Source of the DNA: an uncultured Opitutia bacterium
GTDB taxonomy: Bacteria; Verrucomicrobiota; Verrucomicrobiia; Opitutales; Opitutaceae
Length of the DNA stretch: 38,476 nucleotides
Assembly: GCA_903830425.1 (NCBI GenBank)
Contig: CAIKTR010000164.1
Coordinates: 1 to 38,476 of the forward strand
Direction: 5' to 3'
Positions 24,270-32,080 of this stretch are shown here, piece by piece. Numbering within the stretch: the stretch's first letter is position 1; each line of letters starts with the position of its first letter. The notes beneath the pieces were generated by a model. It was not told the origin of the DNA. It saw only the letters and a program-made list of their open reading frames with translations, and did not search any database. The position numbers were made by a program, and so were the translations under genes.

Positions 24270-25352
24270 TCACGCGCGGCCAGGGCCGGCGGCCGTCGGG
24301 CCCGGCCGGAGGCCCCGCTGGTTCTCGTCGTACAGGGCGAGGATGTTGTCGAGCGGGATGTCCTCGATGAACTCCTGGCTGCCGCAGAGGATGTAGCCGC
24401 CGTGGACCCGGGTGAGGGCGAGATACGCCTGGACTTCCGCCCGCACGTCCGCGGTCGAGCCGAAGGGCAGGGTGCGCTGCGTGTCCACGCCGCCGTGAAA
24501 GGTCAGGGCGCCGCCGAAATCCCGGACCAGCCCGGCCAGGTCCATGCCGTGGGCGGCGACCTGGATCGGGTCGAGAATGTCCACGCCGTCGGCCACCAGG
24601 CAGGGAATGATGTCCCGGATGGCGCCGCAGGAGTGGTTCATGACCTTGCAGCCGTGGTCGTGGGCGGCGTCGAAGAAGCGCTTCAGCGGCTGGCGGATGA
24701 AGTCGTTCCACATCCGGGGGGAAATATACATCCCGCGCTGTGTCCCGAAGTCGTTGCCGAAGTAGGCAATGTCGAGCCGGCCGCCCGCCGCCTGGAGGAA
24801 GCGCCGCGTCGCCTCGACCTCGTAGTCGACGACCCGGTCGATGATCGCGCGGATGACCTCGGGCTTGGTGTGCATCCACATCATGAACTCCTCCTGGCCG
24901 ATCAGCCACCCCACCTCGTGGAAAAACGGGCTCCAGGGCGCGCCGTAGGTGGCGTACTGGGCGTGATGCCGGCGGCAGTGCTCCGGCACCCCGGAGTAGT
25001 CGAGCCGCGCGGCGTCCGGCCAGGGGTGGGCCAGGACCTCGTCGAGGGTGGTGTCCTCGTTGAAGGGGGAGATGAAGTTGGGCCGGCCGTCGCCGGGATC
25101 GGTCGCACGGCGCCGGGCGCCCCACATGGTGCGCCCGTAGCCCTCGGCGTCGGGGCTGGTGTCGGGCTGGCTGTAATTGAAGACGATCCGCCGCATGTCC
25201 ACGCCCAGCGCGACCAGCAGCTCCTCGGCATCGGCCACGCCGAGCTTGCGGATCAGCGCGTCGGTCACGGCGGGGATGGCCCCGTAATCGGCCGGGGTCC
25301 GGTCCGTCGGGCGGTGGGCAATGGCTTGGAGGACGCGCTCGCGGGAGGTCAT
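24270..25352 (-). CDS. Uroporphyrinogen-decarboxylase-fold protein (MtaA/UroD superfamily), copy 3
   Basis: 360 residues from the ATG at 25352. It opens TSRERVLQAIAHRPTDRTP, almost the same as copy 1, and has HSCGAIRDIIPCLVADG, the zinc-type His-x-Cys site, then DILDPIQVAAHGMD and a closing GGYILCGSQEFIEDIP. It differs from HemE in size and in these motifs. It follows the AraC-type gene on the same strand (81 bases apart), so it may be co-transcribed with it or belong to the same regulon. Role inferred only from family: possibly a methyltransferase or demethylase in the use of methylated sugars or aromatic compounds. Confidence 0.86.
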   Translation of the reverse strand: MTSRERVLQAIAHRPTDRTPADYGAIPAVTDALIRKLGVADAEELLVALGVDMRRIVFNYSQPDTSPDAEGYGRTMWGARRRATDPGDGRPNFISPFNEDTTLDEVLAHPWPDAARLDYSGVPEHCRRHHAQYATYGAPWSPFFHEVGWLIGQEEFMMWMHTKPEVIRAIIDRVVDYEVEATRRFLQAAGGRLDIAYFGNDFGTQRGMYISPRMWNDFIRQPLKRFFDAAHDHGCKVMNHSCGAIRDIIPCLVADGVDILDPIQVAAHGMDLAGLVRDFGGALTFHGGVDTQRTLPFGSTADVRAEVQAYLALTRVHGGYILCGSQEFIEDIPLDNILALYDENQRGLRPGPTAAGPGRA

Positions 25353-25432: not shown

Positions 25433-26215
25433 CTAGGGCGGGCGGCGGGCGGCCCCGGCACCGTCGCGGTCGCGCGGCGCGCGCGTGCGCAGTTCGCGCG
25501 GCGAGAGGTGAAAGTGGCGCCGGAACAGCTTCGACAGCTGGTACTCGTCGTTCAGGCCCACCGCGGGCGCGATCGCCTTCACCGGCAGGCCGGACGCCAG
25601 CATCATCGCCCGGGCGCGGTGCACCCGCATCAGCTGCAGCTCCTGCATCGGCGTGCGCCCGCCGAGCCGCTTGAATTTCCGCACGAAGGCAAATTTGCTC
25701 ATGCGCACCCGCCGGGCCAGGTCGTCCAGATAGATCGCGCGCGCCAGGTTCTGCTCCATGTGCATCCGCATCTCCTCCAGCCACGGGTCGCGGGGCGAGT
25801 GGCCCAGCCGCCGCACCTCGCCGAGCACCGCCGCGAGCAGCGGGTGGAGGTGGTCGGTCGCGACGCCGGAGCGCTGGTCGCGCAGCAGCCACCCGACCAT
25901 CTGCCGGACACGCGCATCGGCATCGCGCGTACGCAGGGCAACATTTGCCACAAGCGGCGCGTCCGCCTTGAAGGCGAGGAAAACCGTGTTCACGGGATCG
26001 GCCGGGTCCGAGGTCTCCTCGTGCGCGACGCCGGCGCGGTAGAAGAGCAGGTCGCCCGCCTCCCCTTGCACGGTCTCCTCGGGGGTTTTCAGGGTCATGC
26101 GCCCGCTCAGCACCACGATGAGCTCGTGGATGCGGTGGCTGTGGCTCGGCATGTGCCAGTCGCGCTGCGGCTGCACTTCACCGGCGCTGAGAAATTCGCA
26201 GCTAGGGGCAGGCAT
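25433..26215 (-). CDS. AraC-family transcriptional regulator with N-terminal cupin domain
   Basis: 260 residues from the ATG at 26215; an in-frame start at 26251 would add 12 residues. Residues about 10-85 form a cupin sensor domain (HSHRIHELIVVLSG … GDLLFYRAGVAHE), as in sugar-responsive AraC proteins. The last 100 residues hold the paired helix-turn-helix (LDDLARRVRMSKFAFVRKF, then AIAPAVGLNDEYQLSKLF and SPRELR). The gene is divergent from the dehydrogenase operon with 74 bases between starts, the classic arrangement for control of that operon. The gap contains CCAGC … GCTGG, a possible half-site pair. Confidence 0.92.
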   Translation of the reverse strand: MPAPSCEFLSAGEVQPQRDWHMPSHSHRIHELIVVLSGRMTLKTPEETVQGEAGDLLFYRAGVAHEETSDPADPVNTVFLAFKADAPLVANVALRTRDADARVRQMVGWLLRDQRSGVATDHLHPLLAAVLGEVRRLGHSPRDPWLEEMRMHMEQNLARAIYLDDLARRVRMSKFAFVRKFKRLGGRTPMQELQLMRVHRARAMMLASGLPVKAIAPAVGLNDEYQLSKLFRRHFHLSPRELRTRAPRDRDGAGAARRPP

Positions 26216-26289
26216 GGGCAATATCCGACAAGTCTTGGCAACCCCCGCCATTCTCGCCAGCCCCGAATGCTGGTAGGCTGTGGGCTCTT

Positions 26290-27351
26290 ATGACCCCAAA
26301 GAAAATCCGCCTCGCTTTCGCCGGTGTCGGCGGGATGGGCCAGGCCGCCCATCTCCGCAACTACGCCACGCTGCGCGACGACTGCGAAGTCGTCGCCCTC
26401 GCCGAAATCCGCCCCCTGCAGGCGCAGGCGGTCGCCAAGAAATACAACGTGCCCAAGGTCTACCGCACCATCGCGGAGATGCTGGCGGCCGAAAAGGTCG
26501 ATGCTATCGTGGCCTCGCAGCCCTTCACCCGGCACGGGATCCTGGTCCCCGAGATTGCGCGCGCGGGCGTGCCGATCTTCACCGAGAAGCCCATCGCGGC
26601 GTCGGTCGCCGTGGGCGAGCGCATCGTCGCGTCGGTCGCGCAAAGCGGCACCTGGCACATGGTCGGCTACCACAAGCGCAGCGACCCGGCGACCGAGTAT
26701 GCCAAGCGGACGATTGACGGGCTCAAGGCCTCCGGCGAGCTGGGCAAGCTGACCTACGTGCGCATCTCCATGCCGCCGGGCGACTGGATCGCCGCGGGCT
26801 GGACCGACACGATTCACAGCGCGGATCCGGCCCCGGCGCTCGAGCTCGATCCCCCGCCGGCCGACATGGACGCGGCGACCACCAAGGAGTACGAGGCGTT
26901 CGTGAACTACTACATCCATCAGGTGAACCTCCTGCGCTTCCTCGTGGGCGAGCCGTACCAGGTTTCCTACGCCGATCCGGCCAAGGTGCTCCTCGTGGCG
27001 CACAGTGCGAGCGGCGTCCCCTGCACCATCGAGATGGCGGCTTACCAGACGACACTCGACTGGCAGGAGACCGCGCTCGTCGGCTTTGAGCGCGGCTACG
27101 TGAAGCTCTCCCTGCCCGCCCCGCTCGCGCACAACCGCGCCGGCACCGTCGAGATTCTCAAGGACCCGGGACAGGGCGCCGTCCCCGTCACGCTGCACCC
27201 GCAGATGCCGTGGATGCACGCCATGCGCAACCAGGCGCTCAACTTCATCAAGGCGGTCCGCGGCGAGGCGCCCGCCCCGTGCCTCGCCCCCGAGGCGCTC
27301 GAGGACATCAAGATCGCCCGCGAATACATCCGCCTGCTCAAAGGAGTCTGA
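26290..27351 (+). CDS. Gfo/Idh/MocA family oxidoreductase
   Basis: 353 residues, NAD(P)-dependent dehydrogenase of the glucose-fructose oxidoreductase, inositol dehydrogenase and rhizopine type. The Rossmann start FAGVGGMGQAAHL (about 10-22) and the EKPIA motif with the catalytic-site Lys100 are clear. The C-terminal domain (from about 125) carries the sheet that binds the sugar. Cytoplasmic. It heads a three-gene operon with a FG-GAP propeller protein (2-base gap) and a TIM-barrel epimerase. No Shine-Dalgarno sequence is present; a TAGGCT ten bases before the ATG may be the -10. Substrate is probably a sugar or sugar acid but cannot be named. Confidence 0.93.
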   Translation: MTPKKIRLAFAGVGGMGQAAHLRNYATLRDDCEVVALAEIRPLQAQAVAKKYNVPKVYRTIAEMLAAEKVDAIVASQPFTRHGILVPEIARAGVPIFTEKPIAASVAVGERIVASVAQSGTWHMVGYHKRSDPATEYAKRTIDGLKASGELGKLTYVRISMPPGDWIAAGWTDTIHSADPAPALELDPPPADMDAATTKEYEAFVNYYIHQVNLLRFLVGEPYQVSYADPAKVLLVAHSASGVPCTIEMAAYQTTLDWQETALVGFERGYVKLSLPAPLAHNRAGTVEILKDPGQGAVPVTLHPQMPWMHAMRNQALNFIKAVRGEAPAPCLAPEALEDIKIAREYIRLLKGV

Positions 27352-27353
27352 CC

Positions 27354-28457
27354 ATGGCCCTCTCCTTCCATAAACGCGTCCTCTCGGCCGAGCGCTACGA
27401 GTCGGCCGGCATCTTTGACGTCAACGGCGACGGCATCCCCGACATCGTCAGCGGCGGCTACTGGTACCAGGGCCCTGACTTCAAGCGGCAGCACAAGATC
27501 GGCGGCGTCACGGCGCACGACGAATACTACGACGATTTCTCCACCATCGCCATGGACATCAATGGCGACGGCCGGCTCGACTACCTCACGGGCGGCTGGT
27601 GGGGGCAGACCCTCCGCTGGCGCGAGAACACCGGCGACTACACGCGGGACTGGCCGGAGCACATCGTCGCGCAGACCGGCTCCATCGAGTCGACCCGCGC
27701 GTGGGATGTCGACGGCGACGGCGAGCTGGAAATCGTGCCCAACACGCCCGGCGCCCCGCTGGTCGTCTACAAGCTCATCCGCGACGCGCAGGGCAAAGGC
27801 ACCGGCCGGTTTGCCGCGCACAAGCTCAAGATGGCGGGCCGCGAAAACGACCATCAGGGCCACGGGCTGGGGTTTGGCGACCTCACCGGCAACGGCCGCG
27901 GCGACTTTGTGCTGGCCAACGGCTGGCTCGAGGCGCCGGCCGATCCCTACCAGGGCACCTGGACCTGGCACCCCGACTTCACCCTCGGCCGCGCGCCGAG
28001 CGTGCCGATCCTGGTCGTCGACCTCAACGGCGACGGCCAGAACGAACTCATCCTCGGCGAGGGCCACGGCTACGGCCTCAGCTGGTGGGACTACCGGCTC
28101 GACGCCGCCGGGAAGCGCACGTGGACGCGCCACGAGATCGACCCGCTCAGCAGCCAGTATCACGACCTCCAGTGGGTCGATATCGACGGCGACGGCCAAA
28201 ACGAGCTCATCACCGGCAAGCGCTTCCGCGCCCATCCGCAGGGCGATGGCGGCGACAAGGATCCCTACGGCTGGTATGTCTTCAAGTGGACCGGCGAGTC
28301 CTTCGCGAAACACGTCATCGACTTCGGCCCGCTCGGCACCGGCAAGGGCCTCGGCATTCACTTCGCCGTCGCCGACCTGGATGGCGACGGGCGGCTCGAC
28401 GTCGTGGCGCCGGGCAAGGACGGGCTCGCGATCTACTTCAACCAAGGCAACACATGA
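27354..28457 (+). CDS. FG-GAP/VCBS-repeat beta-propeller protein without signal peptide
   Basis: 367 residues. Seven Ca-binding-loop repeats of the form D-x-[ND]-G-[DN]-G-x-x-[DE] are visible: NGDGIPD, NGDGRLD, DGDGELE, TGNGRGD, NGDGQNE, DGDGQNE and DGDGRLD, spaced about 45-60 residues apart, which fits a seven-bladed propeller. The start (ALSFHKRVLSAERYES) has no signal peptide or hydrophobic helix, so a cytoplasmic protein is predicted, unlike the usual secreted members. The ATG is preceded by AAGGAG at 27341-27346. Its stop overlaps the next gene (ATGA). It may bind a sugar or an adjacent enzyme, an inference. Confidence 0.85.
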   Translation: MALSFHKRVLSAERYESAGIFDVNGDGIPDIVSGGYWYQGPDFKRQHKIGGVTAHDEYYDDFSTIAMDINGDGRLDYLTGGWWGQTLRWRENTGDYTRDWPEHIVAQTGSIESTRAWDVDGDGELEIVPNTPGAPLVVYKLIRDAQGKGTGRFAAHKLKMAGRENDHQGHGLGFGDLTGNGRGDFVLANGWLEAPADPYQGTWTWHPDFTLGRAPSVPILVVDLNGDGQNELILGEGHGYGLSWWDYRLDAAGKRTWTRHEIDPLSSQYHDLQWVDIDGDGQNELITGKRFRAHPQGDGGDKDPYGWYVFKWTGESFAKHVIDFGPLGTGKGLGIHFAVADLDGDGRLDVVAPGKDGLAIYFNQGNT

Positions 28458-29293
28458 AAATTGGCATGAACCTCCTGCTTTGGACCGCCAAGGTGACCGA
28501 AGCCCACGACCCGCTCCTCGCCGCGCTGCGGCAGACCGGCTTTGATGGCGTCGAGATACCCGTCTTCGAAGGCACCTCGGCGGAATACCAGGCGCTCGGC
28601 GGCAAGCTGCGCAACCTCGGCCTCGGCGCCACCGCCGTGACCGTGATGGCGCCGGAAGCCAGCCCGATCAGCCCCGATCCGAAGATCCGGCAGGCCGCCG
28701 TCGACCGCCTCAAGTGGGTGCTCGACCGTTGCGCCGACTTCAACGCCGAGGTGCTCTGCGGCCCGCTGCATTCGCCGCTCGGCGTGTTCAGCGGCGCTCC
28801 GCCCACGCGCGACGAGCGCCTGCGCGGGCGGGAGACGATGCAGCAGGTCGCCGCGCACGCCGCCGCCGTGAAGGTGACGCTCGCCGTCGAATACCTGAAC
28901 CGCTTTGAGAGCTACTTCCTCACCACGGCCGCGGACACCGCGAAATGGGTCGGTGAAATCAACCATCCCGCCTGTGGCATGCTGTGGGACACGTTCCACG
29001 CGCACATCGAGGAGAAGGACTCGGCCGCCGCGCTGGAGGCGGTGCGCCGGCACGTGGTGCACGTGCACCTGAGCGAAAACGACCGCGGCACGCCGGGCAC
29101 GGGCCAGGTGAAGTGGGCGGAGACGTTCGCGACGTTGAAAAAGATCCGCTACGACCGCTGGCTCGTCATCGAGGCGTTTGGCCGGGCGCTGCCCGACCTG
29201 GCCGCCGCCACCCGCGTCTGGCGCGACCTCTTTGCCGACCCCAAGGACGTTTACACCGACGGCCTGGCCTTCATCCGCCGCGGCATCCGCTGA
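28454..29293 (+). CDS. TIM-barrel sugar isomerase/epimerase (xylose-isomerase-like)
   Basis: 279 residues, AP endonuclease 2/xylose isomerase-like fold. Metal-site regions of the D-psicose/D-tagatose 3-epimerase branch are present: LAVEYLNRFE (Glu near residue 145), GMLWDTFHAHIEE, VHVHLSENDRG, and a late LVIEAF with Glu. Each of the four provides a metal or catalytic residue in the family. The start overlaps the FG-GAP stop (ATGA). It is the last gene of the operon and is followed by a terminator. With the dehydrogenase it could interconvert and oxidise a rare keto sugar or inositol-type compound. Confidence 0.9.
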   Translation: MKIGMNLLLWTAKVTEAHDPLLAALRQTGFDGVEIPVFEGTSAEYQALGGKLRNLGLGATAVTVMAPEASPISPDPKIRQAAVDRLKWVLDRCADFNAEVLCGPLHSPLGVFSGAPPTRDERLRGRETMQQVAAHAAAVKVTLAVEYLNRFESYFLTTAADTAKWVGEINHPACGMLWDTFHAHIEEKDSAAALEAVRRHVVHVHLSENDRGTPGTGQVKWAETFATLKKIRYDRWLVIEAFGRALPDLAAATRVWRDLFADPKDVYTDGLAFIRRGIR

Positions 29294-31009: not shown

Positions 31010-32080
31010 ATGCGCCTCGCATCCCTTCTCCTATTCGGCAGTTGCTCCGTGTTGTTCGGGGCGTCACCAGTCGTGCCCGCCCTCCGCCCGCTGGCCACGG
31101 CTGCAGGGCTCAACTTCGGAGTCGCCACGAGTGCGGGGGTCGTCCGCACCGATGCCGCTTACCGCGAAACTTTGCTCGCCTACGCCAATACGATCGTGGC
31201 GGAAAATGACCTGAAGTTCGGGCCGCTCTCCCCGCGGCCCGGATTTTACGATTTCAGCCGGGCGGACGCGCTGGTGGATTTTGCCGCCGAGCACGGGCTG
31301 AAGGTCCGCGGCCATGTGCTGGTCTGGCATCACCAGTTGCCGGATTGGCTCAAGGCCGCCCATTACACGGCAGAACAGGCCAGGGAGCTGATGCGGGTCC
31401 ACATCTTCACCGTCATGGGCCGCTATCGCGGGAAAATCTTCCAATGGGATGTCGTCAACGAAGCCGTCACCAACGCCTCGCGAGCACCGCTGCGCCAATC
31501 ATTTTGGCTCGAGACCATCGGTCCCGAATACATCGCGCTCGCTTTTCGCTACGCTCATGAGGCTGACCCGCAGGCAAAACTGTTCTACAATGACTACGGT
31601 GCGGAGGATCTCAGCCCGAAGTCAGACGCAGTCTATAAGCTCGTGCGCGACCTGAAACAGCAGGGCGTGCCAATCAATGGCGTGGGCCTGCAATGCCATT
31701 TTGATGTTGCGGCACCTCCGAATCTCGAAGCCGTGGCAGCCAACCTGCAGCGACTGGCGGACCTCGGACTCGAACTGGCCGTCACGGAATTCGATGCCCG
31801 GCTGCACTTGCCCGCCAGCGCTGCTAATCTGGAAAAACAGGCAACTCTCGAGCACGACTTGCTGGCGGTGGTTCTGCGACAGCCGGCCTGCAGGACATTT
31901 ATGGTCTGGGGTCTCACCGATGCCCGCTCATGGGTTCCGAACTTTTATCGGGGCTACGGAGCCGCCTTGCCGTTCGATGCGATGCTTGCGCCCAAGCCTG
32001 CTCTTTATGGGTTGGAACGGGCGCTGCGCCAGGCCCCACCAGTAGTCTCCGGGACCGGGAGTGCCCGGCCCACGCGATGA
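31010..32080 (+). CDS. Glycoside hydrolase family 10 endo-1,4-beta-xylanase
   Basis: 356 residues with a signal peptide of about 18 residues (LASLLLFGSCSVLFGAS). GH10 barrel with all landmarks: NDLKFGPLSPRPGFYDF, GHVLVWHHQLPDWL, the acid/base Glu151 in WDVVNEAV, FYNDYGAED, and the nucleophile Glu260 in LAVTEFDARL, then FMVWGLTDARSW. No carbohydrate-binding module is present, so it is a single-domain enzyme of typical size. Exported, cleaving xylan backbones. Codons are less GC-rich than in core genes here. No Shine-Dalgarno sequence. The gene stands alone between two repeat-rich intergenic regions, suggesting acquisition. Confidence 0.95.
   Translation: MRLASLLLFGSCSVLFGASPVVPALRPLATAAGLNFGVATSAGVVRTDAAYRETLLAYANTIVAENDLKFGPLSPRPGFYDFSRADALVDFAAEHGLKVRGHVLVWHHQLPDWLKAAHYTAEQARELMRVHIFTVMGRYRGKIFQWDVVNEAVTNASRAPLRQSFWLETIGPEYIALAFRYAHEADPQAKLFYNDYGAEDLSPKSDAVYKLVRDLKQQGVPINGVGLQCHFDVAAPPNLEAVAANLQRLADLGLELAVTEFDARLHLPASAANLEKQATLEHDLLAVVLRQPACRTFMVWGLTDARSWVPNFYRGYGAALPFDAMLAPKPALYGLERALRQAPPVVSGTGSARPTR

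Follow-up and report, generated by a model that had tools for sequence, protein, structure and literature searches.

A stand-alone FG-GAP/VCBS propeller encoded beside a Gfo/Idh/MocA dehydrogenase and related to aldos-2-ulose dehydratase is a candidate cytoplasmic keto-sugar dehydratase

The window analysed here, a stretch of 38,476 nucleotides from an uncultured Opitutia bacterium, carries at positions 27354–28457 of the forward strand a gene for a seven-bladed FG-GAP/VCBS propeller of 367 residues, which we predict to be a cytoplasmic, metal-dependent keto-sugar dehydratase or β-eliminase. Its reading frame runs from an ATG at 27354 to a TGA at 28455–28457, and the sequence AAAGGAG (27340–27346, forward strand), read directly 7 bases before the ATG, is its likely ribosome-binding site. 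Upstream on the same strand lies the gene of the partner enzyme, a Gfo/Idh/MocA dehydrogenase of 353 residues (26290–27351; Pfam E = 2.3e-19), whose stop codon ends at 27351 and leaves a gap of 2 bases to the propeller ATG. Downstream, the ATG of an epimerase-like gene at 28454 overlaps the propeller stop codon by 4 bases (ATGA). These coordinates bear out the placement between a dehydrogenase and an epimerase-like gene that a sequence-only reading of the window had described. The downstream gene (28454–29293, forward strand; 279 residues plus stop) encodes a xylose-isomerase-like TIM barrel (AP_endonuc_2, E = 6.1e-39) that is D-tagatose/D-allulose 3-epimerase-like, its nearest solved structures being D-tagatose and D-allulose 3-epimerases. 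A divergent gene at 25433–26251 (reverse strand) encodes an AraC-type regulator with a cupin sensor domain, which, judging from its position, likely regulates the propeller operon. Beside this regulator, on the other side of the operon, is a URO-D-like gene (24270–25331, reverse strand). A GH10 xylanase gene (31010–32080, forward strand; E = 3.4e-97) follows the operon some 1.7 kb further downstream. Genes of the URO-D-like type are found repeatedly close to the dehydrogenase-propeller pair: in the window, at L059:3873-5117 and upstream in L049, the last identified by clustering only. A scan for promoters and terminators found none.

The propeller contains seven DxxGxGxx[D/E] loops, which start at residues 22, 68, 118, 176, 223, 276 and 341. 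As 2000 shuffles of the protein gave on average 0.002 such loops and never more than 1, the seven calcium-binding-type loops reported from the sequence stand. The protein matches Pfam FG-GAP_3 (PF13517) with an E value of 5e-27 and 94.7 bits, against a curated cut-off of 26.9; an NCBIfam scan gave nothing useful and a PHROGs scan one weak match. We collected relatives from one scan of genome contigs (44 loci) and from genome searches, which together gave 95 different sequences, and divided them by identity to the window protein into 61 close relatives (at least 48%), 30 distant relatives (about 29–43%) and 4 weaker matches. The close relatives occur in Verrucomicrobiota, Planctomycetota, Armatimonadota, Chloroflexota, Bacteroidota, Bacillota, Lentisphaerota, Poribacteria and Hydrogenedentota, although individual phylum labels may be wrong because many of the genomes are metagenome bins. 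In a survey of phyla, 33 of 387 genomes had a match with an E value no higher than 1e-60. The genome of the window itself carries two copies, 59% identical, which are its sole FG-GAP_3 matches at the threshold used. A search of the open-licence literature found no published description of the family.

We assigned export signals by combining hydropathy and start-codon context with a comparison to relatives, rather than with a dedicated predictor. Within 250 bases upstream of the propeller ATG there are two alternative starts, both GTG, at −144 and −75, and the N-termini that they would add are arginine-rich and non-hydrophobic (maximum 11-residue hydropathy ≤0.51). The hydropathy scan of the starts found neither a signal peptide nor a membrane anchor in the window propeller, so the earlier statement that both are absent holds for the alternative starts as well, with AAAGGAG placed at the short start. 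Among the close relatives, in several phyla, 56 of 61 lack a signal-like N-terminus from any nearby start and three have one (L062, L065 and L066, all Cyclobacteriaceae), L050 and L097 being left unclassed. Among the distant relatives hydropathy gave a signal-like start in 25 of 30 and inspection by eye added L075, with L024, L030, L072 and L102 unclassed. On a midpoint-rooted tree of 87 of the 91 sequences (L024, L030, L063 and L075 omitted; L072 and L102 scored as exported without proof) the close relatives form one clade (support 100/99) and the location label needs two changes, one basal in the subfamily and the other within Cyclobacteriaceae. Therefore the rule that FG-GAP/VCBS proteins are extracellular, invoked in the sequence-only reading, fits the wider family, but the window subfamily departs from it. 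That reading had also named two findings that would speak against an intracellular protein; homologues that look secreted do exist, namely distant ones and the three close ones, but by hydropathy no export signal is seen from an alternative start. An exported surface protein or adhesin with an overlooked signal would agree with the signal-like N-termini of these relatives, yet we regard it as very improbable for the window protein, given the signal-free close relatives, a strong ribosome-binding site in front of the short start, and an upstream region with no hydrophobic stretch. The three Cyclobacteriaceae loci with a signal-like start lack a Gfo/Idh partner within 6 kb; they have their neighbourhood in common, which in L066 comprises SusD, ThuA, two TIM barrels and an alpha/beta hydrolase.

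The lasting linkage of the propeller is to the dehydrogenase. A Gfo/Idh/MocA gene of the window's type (40–100% identity) lies on the same strand beside 48 of the 61 close relatives, upstream in 46 and downstream in 2, and within 300 bases in 43; operon conservation had been proposed as a check. For the other 13 the flanking DNA examined held no partner; these include the three exported Cyclobacteriaceae proteins and several loci that are at contig ends or were viewed with 1.5 kb per side. In L047 and L054 no partner lies within 6 kb to either side. No partner dehydrogenase was found beside any of the 30 distant relatives, most of them viewed with 1.5 kb per side, L075 having a weak dehydrogenase match of 25% that falls under the cut-off. 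For the 43 of 48 pairs with at least 300 aligned dehydrogenase residues, the pairwise distances of propeller and dehydrogenase correlate with a Mantel r of 0.83 (maximum 0.36 in 2000 permutations) and with r = 0.63 among more distant comparisons, a correlation to which shared species history contributes. Propeller and dehydrogenase thus appear to be co-inherited across several phyla. The dehydrogenase of the window retains the EKP motif (E99-K100-P101) and the conserved His (H210), which we take to be the catalytic motifs of the Gfo/Idh/MocA family. The dehydrogenase model is similar both to several sugar oxidoreductases and to NAD-dependent glycosidases; sulfoquinovosidase, 1,5-anhydrofructose reductase and others are no more than about 2 Z units apart, and so the model does not settle the substrate.

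The companions of this pair differ from locus to locus. In Opitutaceae the third gene is ketose 3-epimerase-like (13 of 13; L032–L044), in L050 the companion is UxaE-like, and a GH4 enzyme of the alpha-galactosidase type neighbours the propeller in 6 of 39 loci. GH4 enzymes work by 3-oxidation and elimination. Because the companion gene differs from genome to genome, the data point to a core of dehydrogenase and propeller with sugar-specific additions. The second dehydrogenase-propeller pair of the window genome (L076:70-7864; contig C98 of G000) is flanked on one side by an AraC regulator with a GH106 alpha-L-rhamnosidase and on the other by an arabinose-isomerase-like gene.

Eleven residues do not vary among the 61 close relatives: E16, Y38, Y58, F62, E112, H170, H238, H270, K289, R290 and H294. 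In the 30 distant relatives E112 is kept in 29, H238, H270, R290 and H294 in 28 each and H170 in 26, and the four weak FG-GAP matches lack most of the conserved residues. The family motif is E...HGxG...HxY...QxH...GKRxxAH. On the forward strand, E16 is encoded at 27399–27401, the candidate catalytic base E112 at 27687–27689, the candidate metal ligands H170, H238 and H270 at 27861–27863, 28065–28067 and 28161–28163, and the GKRxxAH motif with K289, R290 and H294, candidate substrate-binding residues, at 28218–28235. E16 (in blade 1), E112, H170 and H270 occupy equivalent positions in their blades, each preceding the calcium loop by six residues. Since this position was His in 2 and Glu in 0 of 62 calcium loops from other FG-GAP proteins of related genomes, the conserved residues are not features of the repeat. 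In L094 and L095 the blade-1 calcium loop is degenerate and the active-site-like residue set is whole.

Two structure predictions were run, the first using 30 sequences and the second 19 of those available, and the AlphaFold2 model of the window propeller reached a pLDDT of 90.5 and a pTM of 0.91. When this model was compared with 983 chains by VIA-align 2, the top match was aldos-2-ulose dehydratase (AUDH), with Z = 27.7 and an rmsd of 3.6 over 330 residues at 17% identity. The next family followed at Z = 24.9, about 3 lower, and all 50 propellers listed score Z >22, as expected because the fold is shared. Foldseek likewise places AUDH first (E = 1.5e-10). At the sequence level AUDH was detected only with profiles: a profile of 34 relatives finds it at E = 1e-6 with residues 99–393 aligned in one stretch, and hhalign against a 318-residue AUDH fragment gave E = 3.4e-7 and a probability of 93. 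In the profile search CRTAC1 (9.5e-12) and a fungal lectin (1.1e-7) outscore AUDH, but theirs are shorter matches of calcium loops, in contrast to the single long stretch of AUDH, and to our knowledge neither is an enzyme. Single-sequence phmmer searches of the PDB did not find AUDH with the window protein, returning only TcdB1 (E = 0.018) and BBS2 (E = 0.36), and returned only a fungal lectin with L009 (E = 0.51). Both the Foldseek and the profile matches include YesW and YesX, rhamnogalacturonan lyases of family PL11, which are larger (chains of 591–620 residues), rank structurally below AUDH and have polysaccharide substrates. They are propeller enzymes that work by β-elimination.

AUDH, a fungal enzyme, dehydrates keto-sugars by elimination. 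Its propeller presumably holds zinc and is presumably followed by cupin and further domains, and we take H155 to be its proposed catalytic acid/base; we know of no link of AUDH to a Gfo/Idh/MocA gene. The enzyme of Phanerochaete chrysosporium (PDB 4a7k/4a7y/4a7z) has a seven-bladed VCBS/FG-GAP propeller, as does the window protein. H170, H238 and H270 align with AUDH H215, H295 and H337 in both the HMMER profile alignment and hhalign. E112 aligns with H155 in hhalign and in one profile (A1), whereas a second profile (A3) puts the Glu nearer H161, a residue with which it would likewise not match; ungapped reading from E112 to the strand at 126–130 supports H155 as the probable counterpart. Structure prediction and a search for catalytic residues, two further checks that had been proposed from the sequence, therefore yield an AUDH-like propeller with invariant candidate active-site residues, and the window protein probably works like the propeller of AUDH. 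It is not AUDH itself, because of the two defining features tested it has neither His155, its family carrying Glu at that position, nor the cupins, for which Pfam gave no match in the 367-residue protein. AUDH is a fungal protein of about 900 residues, whereas the window propeller stands alone and its family is bacterial. Since Glu replaces the His base and the GKRxxAH motif has no counterpart in AUDH, the reaction or the substrate may differ.

We therefore propose that this single-domain protein, a relative of the AUDH propeller, is a cytoplasmic enzyme that would act as a dehydratase or β-eliminase on the keto-sugar made by its partner, and we give this reading slightly better than an even chance. 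With NAD(P), the Gfo/Idh/MocA enzyme would turn a sugar or a glycoside into a ketone by oxidation. A divalent metal, predicted to sit on H170, H238 and H270 at one axial end of the propeller, would bind and polarise this ketone, and E112, at the place of AUDH H155, would abstract the proton adjacent to it, upon which water or an aglycone would be eliminated. K289, R290, H294, Y58 and Y240 may hold the substrate, and the companion isomerase or epimerase, which varies by genome, would pass the product to central metabolism. The computations show the reading frame, the missing export signal, the fold, the invariant residues with their alignment to AUDH, and the linkage to the dehydrogenase; the metal and its ligands, the direction of the reaction, the substrate and the leaving group (water or the glycosidic oxygen) are all parts that we infer.

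Among the remaining readings our concern is greatest for an isomerase, epimerase or hydratase of a keto-sugar or 3-keto-glycal, then for a lactonase and then for a scaffold. In the first of these the metal would again polarise a ketone and E112 would shift protons between carbons or add water, so that the enolisation chemistry of the active site would be identical. AUDH itself is named a bifunctional dehydratase/isomerase, and hydration comes after elimination in the A. tumefaciens route (PMC10628242). We nevertheless consider such an activity unlikely, as isomerisation already fits the adjoining TIM-barrel epimerase and, elsewhere, the UxaE or arabinose-isomerase-like proteins. A lactonase or other hydrolase would open a C1 lactone that the dehydrogenase makes from an aldose; SMP-30 (6-bladed) and a 7-bladed lactonase family open lactones in other sugar pathways. 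The order of a dehydrogenase and then a cytoplasmic propeller suits an aldonate pathway, the metal site could activate water, and the nearby isomerases and epimerases would act on free sugars. An adjoining aldose isomerase or ketose epimerase would be odd for an aldonate route, however, no SMP-30 or lactonase Pfam model is among the matches up to E = 1, and AUDH is the top structural match; we think this reading improbable. SMP-30 and lactonase folds do not appear among the 50 structural matches listed by Foldseek and VIA-align 2, an absence that leaves room for them lower in the ranking.

The sequence-only reading had left a choice between an intracellular enzyme and a scaffold for the pathway. 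Tight co-inheritance with the dehydrogenase would also be expected if the propeller were a scaffold without catalysis, or a sugar-binding subunit, that forms an inherited complex with that enzyme, and some VCBS relatives, such as PVL lectins, bind sugars. A listing of the superfamily is given in PMC8023676. Eleven positions that never vary in 61 sequences argue against this, as do the distant, mostly secreted relatives, which have no dehydrogenase of this type nearby and keep nearly all eleven. What all 61 close relatives conserve are polar residues of active-site-like character, and L094 and L095 keep them despite their degenerate loop. Only the enzyme half of the proposal is upheld, by invariant His, Glu, Lys and Arg outside the calcium loops, by AUDH as top structural match and by a partner conserved across phyla; a scaffold role seems quite improbable.

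The proposed dehydratase or β-eliminase can be set beside known routes of sugar breakdown. In O- and C-glycoside breakdown the substrate is oxidised to a ketone and then cleaved by metal-assisted elimination beside the ketone by TIM-barrel eliminases (PMC10628242). The A. tumefaciens OGE and gut CGE pathways described there and the window locus are alike in combining oxidoreductases with sugar isomerase/epimerase-like TIM barrels in an operon, but the OGE/CGE eliminase is a Mn TIM barrel and the eliminase proposed here a propeller of unrelated fold. The window operon does contain the Gfo/Idh/MocA-type oxidoreductase of an oxidation-elimination pathway (26290–27351); its only TIM barrel looks like a ketose 3-epimerase by comparison with solved structures. 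The 3-keto-disaccharide hydrolases of PF06439 (DUF1080) act on 3-keto-glycosides (PMC9007349). They are joined to the propeller in the distant relative L072 and are not found beside the window gene. FG-GAP/VCBS proteins are usually annotated just as repeat or adhesion-like; very likely, some are soluble sugar enzymes with a specific residue set. If the proposed function is right, a single fungal enzyme would be extended to a bacterial family in several phyla, one more enzyme would join non-hydrolytic sugar breakdown, and the family motif would re-annotate many genes now called 'VCBS repeat-containing protein'.

A broader possibility, which we offer tentatively and with more doubt than confidence, is that widespread stand-alone VCBS propellers perform metal-dependent β-elimination on 3-keto-glycosides. 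The Gfo/Idh/MocA enzyme and the propeller would then form a movable cleavage module used with sugar-specific isomerases, and a branch of secreted propellers, fused either to DUF7133, which is cytochrome-linked, or to keto-disaccharide hydrolase domains, would do likewise outside the cytoplasm. β-Elimination would in that case be carried out by a fold distinct from those of GH4 and the known TIM-barrel eliminases. Two fusions among the distant relatives again tie the propeller to sugar oxidation or keto-sugars. At L072:1453-3489 a 3-keto-disaccharide hydrolase domain (PF06439), whose fold differs from that of the propeller, is fused to it, and at L074:5878-10617, in Rhodopirellula, the propeller is joined to DUF7133, HEAT and cytochrome c. 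The long Rhodopirellula proteins are possibly an exported oxidise-then-eliminate enzyme in one chain. A similarly long Rhodopirellula propeller protein is encoded at L070:5809-10608, the domain scan having covered L074.
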